Assembly: GCA_007693955.1 (NCBI GenBank)
Contig: RECR01000038.1
Coordinates: forward strand, 1-37,588
Reading direction: 5' to 3'
Source: Gloeocapsa sp. DLM2.Bin57
GTDB lineage: Bacteria; Cyanobacteriota; Cyanobacteriia; Cyanobacteriales; Gloeocapsaceae
Length of the DNA: 37,588 bases
The notes under the pieces were generated by a model, which saw nothing but the letters and a program-made list of their open reading frames with translations, ran no database searches and was not told the DNA's origin. A program made the position numbers and the translations under genes. This document shows, piece after piece, positions 8,633-14,760 of this stretch (its first letter is position 1; every line of letters starts with the position of its first letter).

Positions 8633-8836
8633 ATGGCACAACGTACCGCTTTAGGTGATCTACTCAGACCTCTCAACGCTGAATATGGTAAAGTTGTCCC
8701 CGGTTGGGGAACAACACCTCTGATGGGAGTCTTTATGTTATTATTTTTCGTCTTCCTACTTATCATCCTTCAGTTGTACAATTCCTCTCTCTTACTTGAG
8801 AATATTGACGTAGATTGGACAAGTATCAGTAAATAA
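8633..8836 (+). CDS. psbH: Photosystem II reaction centre protein H
   Basis: The 67-residue protein has the PsbH stromal N-terminus ([28 protein letters not shown]) followed by one transmembrane helix (about residues 30-48) and a short lumenal tail. PsbH is a PSII core subunit next to CP47 and helps PSII assembly and the QB site. It is full length. It faces psbN on the opposite strand and is followed, 79 bases on, by tatA. Confidence 0.98.
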
Positions 8837-11412: not shown

Positions 11413-11847
11413 TTAACCTAGGGTAGAGAGAATATCTTGAGCGTGAGTAGCGGTTTTAACATTGTCATCCACAACACTGATTTTGCCTTCAGCGTCGATG
11501 ATATAGGTAACACGTTTAGAATAGCCACCCCCATCAACATCATAAGCTTTAGTAATCGCACCGTCGGAATCTACCAACAATTGAAAAGGTAAGCCATATT
11601 TTTCCTTGAACAGCTTGTGAGAAGCTTGATCATCCATACTTACTCCCAAGACTACCATGTCTTTACCTTGGTATTGGTCATAATTATCTCTAAAGCTTTG
11701 AGCTTCTTTAGTACAACCGGGGGTATCGTCTTTGGGATAAAAGTATAAAACGACGATTTTTCCTTTAAAATCCCCCAAAGAAACTGCATTACCTTGATCA
11801 TCAACGGTGCTAAAATCAGGGGCTATTGTACCTGCGGCTAAAACCAT
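11413..11847 (-). CDS. PrxQ/BCP-type peroxiredoxin with a single cysteine
   Basis: The 144-residue thioredoxin-fold peroxidase reduces peroxides. The peroxidatic Cys45 is in the usual YPKDDTPGCTKEA context. Most PrxQ proteins carry a resolving cysteine five residues later (C-x4-C); here that position is Gln50, and no other cysteine exists in the protein. It should therefore act as a 1-Cys enzyme resolved by an external thiol. Length and the remaining core (VVLGVSMDD, YGLPFQLLVDSDG) are normal. It is a monocistronic gene with its own terminator. Confidence 0.92.
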   Translation of the reverse strand: MVLAAGTIAPDFSTVDDQGNAVSLGDFKGKIVVLYFYPKDDTPGCTKEAQSFRDNYDQYQGKDMVVLGVSMDDQASHKLFKEKYGLPFQLLVDSDGAITKAYDVDGGGYSKRVTYIIDAEGKISVVDDNVKTATHAQDILSTLG

Positions 11848-11949: not shown

Positions 11950-12198
11950 ATGAAAATAGAAAAACCTAATCAACAACCACTAACTAAAGAAGATTTACAA
12001 AATCTAGATAAACTCAAAGCATTAATCGAGAAATGCGTATCTGATGGTTATCTCTCTCAAGATGAGATGAAAATGATTAAAGATTTTATCAGAGCAGATG
12101 GGAAAGTAACTACTGAAGAACTAGAATTATGCCAAAAGCTAATCTGGGATAAAATACAATCAGGAGAATTACAATACGACTGGACACCCAAGCATTAA
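11950..12198 (+). CDS. Small helical protein of unknown function
   Basis: The 82-residue protein has no signal peptide or membrane segment. It is predicted to be mostly helical, with a core DGYLSQDEMKMIKDF followed by ADGKVTTEELELCQKL. This alternation of acidic loops and helices is reminiscent of TerB-like or EF-hand-like small proteins, without a clear metal-binding loop. It ends nine bases before the DegT-like gene, so the two are probably co-transcribed. I do not recognise a function. Confidence 0.75.
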   Translation: MKIEKPNQQPLTKEDLQNLDKLKALIEKCVSDGYLSQDEMKMIKDFIRADGKVTTEELELCQKLIWDKIQSGELQYDWTPKH

Positions 12199-12207
12199 TT
12201 ATTCTCC

Positions 12208-13350
12208 ATGGACGAAAAACGTAATATTGCTTTATTCGCTCCAGCAACTGATGTACAAGAATGGGAAGCACTGCGAGAACCTCTACTCAATGGTCATCTG
12301 ATTTCAGGAGCAAGGGTAGAAGCTTTTGAGAGAGAATTTGCGCGAAAACATCGAGTCAGATACGCGATCGCCACTAATAATGGTACTAGTTCTTTACATC
12401 TAATTCTGGTAGCTTTAGGTATCCAAGAAGGAGATGAGGTCATTATCTCCGCTTTTAGTTGGGTATCAGCTATCAACGTTGTCCTCTATTGTGGTGCTAC
12501 TCCCGTTTTAGTAGATATCAACCCTGATACTTTTAACCTAGATATTCAAGAAGTAGCCAATCAAATCGGTAAACGCACTAAAGCTATTATCGTTAGTCAT
12601 TCCTTTGGTTTGTGTGCTAATTTACAAGCTATTGCCGCTTTAGCACCAGAAATCCCCATCATCGAAGACGCTACCTGTGCGATAGGTAGTCAATATGGTT
12701 ATAATTATGCAGGTTCAATTGGGGTAGCGGGAGCATTTTCTTTTCATTCACGTCAAATCATCACAACAGGTGATGGTGGTATGGTTACCACTAATGATGA
12801 GCAAATCGCTGAGAAAATCATGGCTCTACGTAATCACGGTGCTAGTTTGTCAGCAGCTCAACAAAAATTAGGACCAAAACCTTATTTAGCCCCTAGTTTT
12901 AATCTCCTCGGTTTTGATTATCTCTTAAGTGATTTACAAGGAGCGATTGGCTTAATTCAACTACAAAAGTTAGATGATTTGTTAAGTTTTCGCCAATATT
13001 GGGCAGAATATTATTATCAACAACTTAAAGATCTTCCCTGGTTGAAACTACCCCGAGCACCAGAGGGTTATACTCATAGTTGGCAAAAATACGTTTGTTG
13101 TATCAACGAGGAAATCTCCCCTTTATCTCGCAATCAAATCATGGAATTTTTACAAGTACAAGGGATTAGTACTCGTCCTGCTAATTTAGCTATTCATACT
13201 CTAACTTATAATCAAATTAGATTTGGTTTTGAAGAGGCAGATTACCCTACCGCTAGAGACTGCGCCTTAAAATCCTTAACTATTCCTCTACATAATCGTA
13301 TGAGTAGCGCTGACTTTGAGTACGTGGTTAAAAAGTTACAACAAATTTGA
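12208..13350 (+). CDS. DegT/DnrJ/EryC1/StrS-fold protein lacking the PLP lysine
   Basis: The 380-residue protein has the full sugar-aminotransferase fold. It keeps the NGTSSLHLILVALG phosphate-binding region, SWVSAINVV, the pyridine-binding aspartate in IIEDATCAIGS, and TTGDGGMVTT. In the active-site block FSFHSRQIITTGDGG the residue that should be lysine (as in FSFHPRK) is Gln183, codon CAA at 12754-12756. AAA to CAA is one base change. Normal family members aminate keto-sugars; a few relatives with another residue there (ColD, His) are dehydratases. This one is unlikely to be a normal aminotransferase. Its 3' end overlaps the convergent phosphatase gene by 15 bases. Confidence 0.88.
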   Translation: MDEKRNIALFAPATDVQEWEALREPLLNGHLISGARVEAFEREFARKHRVRYAIATNNGTSSLHLILVALGIQEGDEVIISAFSWVSAINVVLYCGATPVLVDINPDTFNLDIQEVANQIGKRTKAIIVSHSFGLCANLQAIAALAPEIPIIEDATCAIGSQYGYNYAGSIGVAGAFSFHSRQIITTGDGGMVTTNDEQIAEKIMALRNHGASLSAAQQKLGPKPYLAPSFNLLGFDYLLSDLQGAIGLIQLQKLDDLLSFRQYWAEYYYQQLKDLPWLKLPRAPEGYTHSWQKYVCCINEEISPLSRNQIMEFLQVQGISTRPANLAIHTLTYNQIRFGFEEADYPTARDCALKSLTIPLHNRMSSADFEYVVKKLQQI

Positions 13351-14760
13351 TTGGACACGCATAATTACTAAGGTCATATCATCAATTATTTTATTACCTG
13401 AACCGATAAAATTATCGACTTCTTGGAATAAATAGTCTAGGATTTCTTGGGGGTTTTCTAGATTTTGACAAGCCCAAGCAAAAGCATGATGAAGATTATC
13501 CTCATCAAAACGTTCGCCATAATTATTAACCGCATCGGTAAAACCATCAGTATAATACATAATCGTATCACCTGGGGCTAGTTGTAGTTGGGAGTATTCA
13601 TATTCAGAATCTGGTACTAATCCGATTAACATTCCTTTGGTATCTAAGGTTTTAATTAAACCCGTGGCGGCTTGCCATAATAAGGGTGGGTTATGGGCAG
13701 CGTTAGTATAGGAGATGATTTGAGTTTTAGGGTTATATTCTGAATAAAATAGTGTAACGAAGCGTCGAGAGTTCTCTAAATCGTCGTACATTACTCTATT
13801 GAGATGTTGCATAATCTGAGCTGGAGAGTGCCGGTTAAGTACTTCTGCTCGTAGCATACCTCTGGTCATAGTCATAATTAAGCCCGCGGGAACACCTTTA
13901 CCCATCACATCACCAATAACGATACTCCAAGGTACAGAATTATCTTGACTATTGAGTTGATCGTAGTTAACGGGAATAAAGTCATAATAATCACCCCCAA
14001 CCCGACTAGCAGTTTTACATTTAGCCGCTAATTGGGCCCCTTTGATTTTGGGACATTGTCTCGGTAAGAGACGCAATTGAATTTCTGAGGCGATTTCTAA
14101 TTCTCGATCCTGTCTTTCTTTAGCCCGTAGTTGTACCGTTAACTCGTGATTGGCGATCGCTACTGCGGTTTGGTCTGATACCAGTTGTAATAACTTGCGT
14201 CTAGTTGAGTTCCACTGATACTCTGAGTGACTACTAAAGATATAGAGACGTCCTCGTTCAGCATTTTTGACTAAAATCGGTGTGCCAAACACTTGAATAT
14301 CTGTTCCTAGTGCTTTACGAATATGTTCATCTACGGCAGCAGGACAAGGTAAGAGTATTTTAGCCATACCTTGGGGGTTACTCGGTGTCAGAGTTAAAGT
14401 CTTGCTGACTTTGGCTAATTTTTGACTAATTTGTTCTCCTTTTTTACTATTATGACAATGGAGTTGTTCTAAACGTATTTGACCTTGAGCATTAAATAAA
14501 ATCAATGCTCCTCCTTCAGCGTCTGTCACTCTAGCTGCCATTAGGGGAGTAAGTTCTAAAAACTGATTGAGGTTATTAAAACTACGCAAAGCAAAACCCA
14601 AAGAACTTAACAGATTTTGGATTTTGTTTTGTTCTCTATACAATCTTGCTACGAGCTCTTTTAATGCTATTACAGGAGTTCCTTCAGAAACAAAATTATC
14701 TTCTTCTGAAGGTTCACTAGGGATAGGCGATACCGTCATTAGCTTTGGGTTTAATTGCAT
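13336..14760 (-). CDS. GAF-PP2C (RsbU/SpoIIE-type) protein phosphatase
   Basis: The 474-residue protein has a GAF-like sensor domain (about 60-205) and a SpoIIE/RsbU-type PP2C domain (about 240-470). Metal-binding and catalytic motifs are present: VGGDYYDF, GDVMGKGVPAG, NAAHNPPLLW, YYTDGFTDAVN and DDMTLVIM. Such enzymes dephosphorylate anti-sigma-factor antagonists in partner-switching pathways. The relatives IcfG and Slr2031 in Synechocystis act in carbon and stress responses. It follows ftsY on the same strand with a 65-base gap. No partner STAS or kinase gene lies in the window. Confidence 0.9.
   Translation of the reverse strand: MQLNPKLMTVSPIPSEPSEEDNFVSEGTPVIALKELVARLYREQNKIQNLLSSLGFALRSFNNLNQFLELTPLMAARVTDAEGGALILFNAQGQIRLEQLHCHNSKKGEQISQKLAKVSKTLTLTPSNPQGMAKILLPCPAAVDEHIRKALGTDIQVFGTPILVKNAERGRLYIFSSHSEYQWNSTRRKLLQLVSDQTAVAIANHELTVQLRAKERQDRELEIASEIQLRLLPRQCPKIKGAQLAAKCKTASRVGGDYYDFIPVNYDQLNSQDNSVPWSIVIGDVMGKGVPAGLIMTMTRGMLRAEVLNRHSPAQIMQHLNRVMYDDLENSRRFVTLFYSEYNPKTQIISYTNAAHNPPLLWQAATGLIKTLDTKGMLIGLVPDSEYEYSQLQLAPGDTIMYYTDGFTDAVNNYGERFDEDNLHHAFAWACQNLENPQEILDYLFQEVDNFIGSGNKIIDDMTLVIMRVQSNLL

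Follow-up and report, generated by a model that had tools for sequence, protein, structure and literature searches.

The sugar aminotransferases of the DegT/DnrJ/EryC1/StrS family are dimers that share their active sites across the two chains (PMC5936713). In Spr1654 the cofactor PLP is contacted by an Asp at the ring nitrogen, by Ser and Thr at the phosphate, by an aromatic ring and by the Schiff-base Lys, while a further residue, Lys257 in Spr1654 and Lys241 in ArnB, holds the carboxylate of the amino donor and is an Asn in PseC and perosamine synthase (PMC5936713). Five strictly conserved contacts, Thr60, Asp156, Ser180, Lys185 and Asn239, are shared by Pcryo_0638, PglE and DesI (PMC8040287). 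Proteins that keep a PLP fold without the lysine are already a known kind, represented by the ColD/E1 dehydratases (PMC8987622) and by Rv3778c (PMC12910592). Here we describe a gene of Gloeocapsa sp. DLM2.Bin57, lying within a window of 37,588 nucleotides (the whole stretch of DNA that was analysed), whose product belongs to the DegT family by descent and carries a glutamine in place of the lysine.

The protein and its active-site contacts

The gene occupies positions 12208..13350 of the forward strand, begins with ATG and encodes 380 aa with zero internal stops. The product matches the Pfam family DegT_DnrJ_EryC1 (PF01041) over residues 15-378 with 326 bits, its AlphaFold model has a mean pLDDT of 95, and a Foldseek search returned GDP-perosamine synthase and ArnB as the nearest solved folds (TM about 0.9). 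Residue 183 is encoded by the codon CAA (12754..12756, forward strand), inside FSFHSRQIITTGDGGM, and the same column is occupied by Lys in both GDP-perosamine synthase (3dr7) and ArnB (1mdo) and by Ala in the engineered K186A mutant (3dr4). That this column is the PLP lysine is beyond doubt, and the replacement by Gln183 proposed in the first-pass annotation was borne out. The surrounding motif also departs from the family through P181S and, within the subfamily, E189D.

The remaining contacts were placed by homologue alignment and published contacts. Asp154 (12667..12669), which contacts the pyridine nitrogen, and Ser178 (12739..12741) and Thr60 (12385-12387), which contact the phosphate, are all encoded on the forward strand and kept, as the first reading had said, and Trp85 is kept as well (compare the aromatic PLP contact in Spr1654). 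What that reading omitted is the change of Asn237 to Asp, along with the wider set of substitutions described below. At Asp237-Tyr-Leu239 (12916..12924, forward strand) every homologue row reads N-x-R, N-x-K or K-x-N, and D-x-L is unique to this protein; position 237 itself is Asn in nearly all relatives and Lys in a few. Its equivalence to ArnB Lys241 was read directly in the alignment, and that to Asn239 was inferred from the numbering, which is shifted by 2 throughout for the Asp, Ser and Lys. Exactly two of the five contacts of Pcryo_0638, PglE and DesI are therefore lost, the Lys and the Asn. As for the features of an aminotransferase by activity, the Schiff-base lysine and the Asn/Lys contact to the external aldimine or donor are absent, and the Asp and Ser/Thr contacts are present. 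As judged from the alignments, the losses at 183 and 237 are of the residues most tied to transamination, and the ring and phosphate contacts stay.

The Lys column was then counted over 140 homologue rows longer than 330 aa. Lys is present in 136 of them and Ala in one; His occurs in three rows, which represent two genes because one is included twice, and no row has Gln. These genomes were sampled from larger groups, so the missing Gln members are not proof of absence. The His-bearing genes are ColD/E1-type 3-dehydratase-like paralogues from the same genome (L003/L140, G000:C94:387-1388) and from a same-genus genome (L130, G002). The Ala lies in an uncultured bacterium MAG at a contig end (L042:5463-6449), within FSFSPNATLGAYGDAG, and this gene keeps the Asn-x-Arg loop. 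Another homologue, which bears Lys, is broken by one TGA (L112, G290:C1:2012204-2013217). No second Gln183 member was found in the genomes sampled and no Gln-bearing DegT protein in the open-access literature. The nearest six homologues (52-57% identity) all have Lys, which argues against a conserved Gln subfamily. With no second member in the genomes sampled, such a subfamily is not supported, and a new one is not claimed.

Relatives, rate of change and retention of the reading frame

The six best homologues (L113-L116, L133 and L134) all come from the cyanobacterial phylum and all carry Lys in FSFHPRK. They are followed by a protein of a deltaproteobacterial Smac51 plasmid (L135) at 43% identity, and identity elsewhere is about 42% or less. 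No close homologue was found in the sets searched, two same-genus genomes holding distant DegT paralogues only. In the tree the protein is nested inside the Lys clade of seven rows with support of 100/98, so that loss of the lysine is derived, and its end branch of 0.86 is 2-5 times longer than those of its sisters (0.16-0.41). Relative-rate counts with L135 as outgroup agree, with 62-76 changes unique to this protein against 24-31 per sister (chi-square 14.7-24.5). Across the 181 columns that are invariant in the six nearest relatives 45 are changed (25%), compared with 2-12 for each sister (1-8%, leave-one-out), and when 15 relatives are used the figures are 20 of 71 invariant columns (28%) against 0-12%.

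The changes are dispersed along the whole protein and are significantly enriched neither at published contacts (Fisher p = 0.06) nor within three residues of a contact (p = 0.12). A general relaxation of constraint thus accounts for this pattern no less well than a focused new function would, and the proposition that the whole active site was remodelled is weakened by the same tests. The altered motif NNGT at 57-60 is also present in active enzymes, for example perosamine synthase.

None of the signs of a pseudogene (stops, frameshifts, lost codon-position bias) is found in 12208-13350. GC at the three codon positions is 0.525/0.393/0.253, which resembles the neighbours, and codon usage is host-like. 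The earlier statement that decay is absent elsewhere in the gene therefore stands for the reading frame and falls for residue conservation, given the 45 changed invariant positions. In a neutral simulation the chance of acquiring no stop was 0.30, 0.10 and 0.0025 at 20, 40 and 80 replacements, and this protein has an excess of about 36-50 replacements going by raw counts and of more going by branch length. Neutral evolution may therefore have lasted for a short while, but a long period free of all constraint is unlikely, and selection probably acted during part of the branch. We lean somewhat towards the gene retaining a non-catalytic role over its being on the way out.

Genomic setting and loss of the sugar cassette

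The four relatives whose loci were read at length (L113-L116, loci L136-L139) show a common order of an NAD-dependent epimerase/dehydratase, the DegT gene and an AsnB-type amidotransferase, the last following immediately or a few genes on, and L133 and L134, with shorter flanks, agree. Several of these nucleotide-sugar cassettes also include genes for a UDP-sugar dehydrogenase, an oxidoreductase and a hexapeptide transferase. On the Smac51 plasmid the DegT gene lies between a gene labelled molybdenum cofactor protein and asnB, followed by a methyltransferase. In the genome studied here (3.45 Mb, 138 contigs, 99.95% complete) no close relatives of the two cassette partners tested were found, the best matches being 33% for the epimerase and 38% (partial) for AsnB.

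In place of a cassette, the gene sits between two conserved blocks. The left block ends with a bcp-type peroxiredoxin (11413..11847, reverse strand) and is followed by an 82-aa conserved cyanobacterial ORF (11950..12198, forward strand), which lies 9 bp upstream of the DegT gene on the same strand. The right block, SpoIIE-FtsY-NusB, begins with a SpoIIE-type phosphatase (13336..14760, reverse strand). The same-genus genome G001 has a tatA-like gene, a response regulator, CPP1, HAD, bcp and the 82-aa ORF collinear with the window, then an ABC ATPase gene, and has SpoIIE-FtsY-NusB on another contig, followed by argH. Because the two blocks lie apart in G001, the DegT gene is placed exactly at their junction. 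It may have come in by transfer or have stayed behind at this spot, and its patchy occurrence would favour transfer. A phage or plasmid origin was rejected, as relatives there are only distant, and a defence gene was rejected for want of a PADLOC match.

The 82-aa ORF has matches in 119 out of 391 genomes in the order, falls below the Pfam cut-offs (DDRGK, DUF533) and belongs ancestrally beside bcp rather than beside the DegT gene. A functional pair of the ORF and the DegT gene was rejected, since the ORF occurs widely across the order and adjoins bcp in G001 with no DegT gene beside it. In several other genomes the match carries an in-frame stop. Promoter-like sites showed no excess over shuffled sequence. 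The RNA features of the window are only a tRNA-Ala and a psbN-type UTR, both unrelated to the DegT gene; the latter, at 8674-8734 on the reverse strand, was identified in this cyanobacterial genome by its match to Rfam's psbN 5' UTR RNA family of plastids. The window also encodes a CHAPERONE-LIKE PROTEIN OF POR1-like gene.

Interpretation and comparison with known lysine-less proteins

The residue losses, the nesting among Lys enzymes, the acceleration and the loss of context are all read from sequence, and together they suggest that the protein is very probably unable to transaminate. Absence of Lys183 would leave no internal aldimine and no proton transfer for transamination, and Asp in place of Asn or Lys at 237 would bind the glutamate donor poorly as well. 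Since the fold is preserved, as are the contacts to the pyridine and the phosphate, PLP/PMP or a nucleotide sugar may still be held non-covalently. The reading we favour, and consider probable, is that of a catalytically dead pseudo-sugar aminotransferase, derived from an active Lys-bearing cassette enzyme and stranded without its cassette; a dead former aminotransferase is most likely, rather than a new enzyme family. There is a modest chance that it is instead a selected, stand-alone DegT protein, acting as a non-catalytic sensor of nucleotide sugar or PLP or as a PMP enzyme with new chemistry, which would have lost the Lys and the donor residue after leaving the cassette. The three first suggestions (a non-aminotransferase, a regulator, a recently inactivated gene) hold in part: that of a non-aminotransferase is supported, and that of a regulator found no support, neither a DNA-binding domain nor a conserved partner being present. 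A PLP/PMP enzyme that catalyses a new reaction, in which Gln183 stands where ColD/E1 have His and the cofactor is held non-covalently, would agree with the kept pyridine and phosphate contacts, with a frame open over a long branch and with the ColD/E1 precedent, where the Lys column and the reaction changed together (PMC8987622). However, Gln, unlike His, offers no acid/base, Asp237 argues against regeneration of PMP from glutamate, no pathway partner lies nearby and the searched genomes hold no second Gln member, so that only a small probability is attached to it. A ColD-like dehydratase in particular, raised at the outset, is disfavoured by the missing His and by Asp at 237, where the His-bearing ColD-type paralogue of the same genome keeps Asn, which speaks against a ColD-like reaction.

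The remaining explanations are weaker. Lys-less subunits exist among PLP enzymes, for example in serine palmitoyltransferase, and the shared active sites of DegT dimers would similarly allow a non-catalytic subunit to pair with an active paralogue from the same genome. This is very unlikely, as those paralogues are only distantly related (at most about 32% identity across most of the protein) and lie on other contigs, and the changes hit loop 237-241. An error in sequencing or assembly, or one very recent mutation of an otherwise working aminotransferase, would need just one transversion, AAA to CAA, and the first-pass annotation had named all-Lys homologues as its sign. The nearest homologues are indeed all Lys, but 44 further subfamily-invariant positions are changed, including N237D, R239L and P181S, and the cassette partners are absent; with relatives only 52-57% identical and acceleration elsewhere, a sequencing error is not sensible and we regard the whole explanation as extremely unlikely. 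More remote still is an active aminotransferase whose Schiff base moved to another lysine. Lys220 and Lys224 are predicted to lie in a mobile loop near the site and would be candidates, but the donor-binding position is lost too and we know of no such relocation in the DegT family.

Compared with known systems, the protein shares its subfamily and clade, EDAxC and the FSFHxR frame with the DegT enzymes of the epimerase-DegT-AsnB cassettes, which differ in having kept the Lys, the Asn-x-Arg, the RPGTHA loop and the cassette itself; it is a clean case of a sugar-pathway gene parted from its cassette and a warning for annotation, in which an automatic pipeline would label it an aminotransferase. 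ArnB and GDP-perosamine synthase (1mdo, 3dr7), its nearest solved folds, are natural enzymes with Lys where it has Gln. The Lys-to-Ala forms K188A (4oca) and K186A (3dr4), crystallised with sugar ligand, were made in the laboratory, whereas this protein is a natural counterpart that has lost the Lys and donor contacts but still has those to the pyridine and phosphate. The ColD and E1 (RfbH) 3-dehydratases likewise have a DegT fold with the Lys replaced, but they use His as the catalytic base, with Asn at 237 in the ColD-type paralogue examined, in place of Gln and Asp. Rv3778c of Mycobacterium tuberculosis is similarly an intact, lysine-less PLP-fold gene, expressed and judged noncatalytic, although its kin are cysteine desulfurases and not DegT proteins (PMC12910592).
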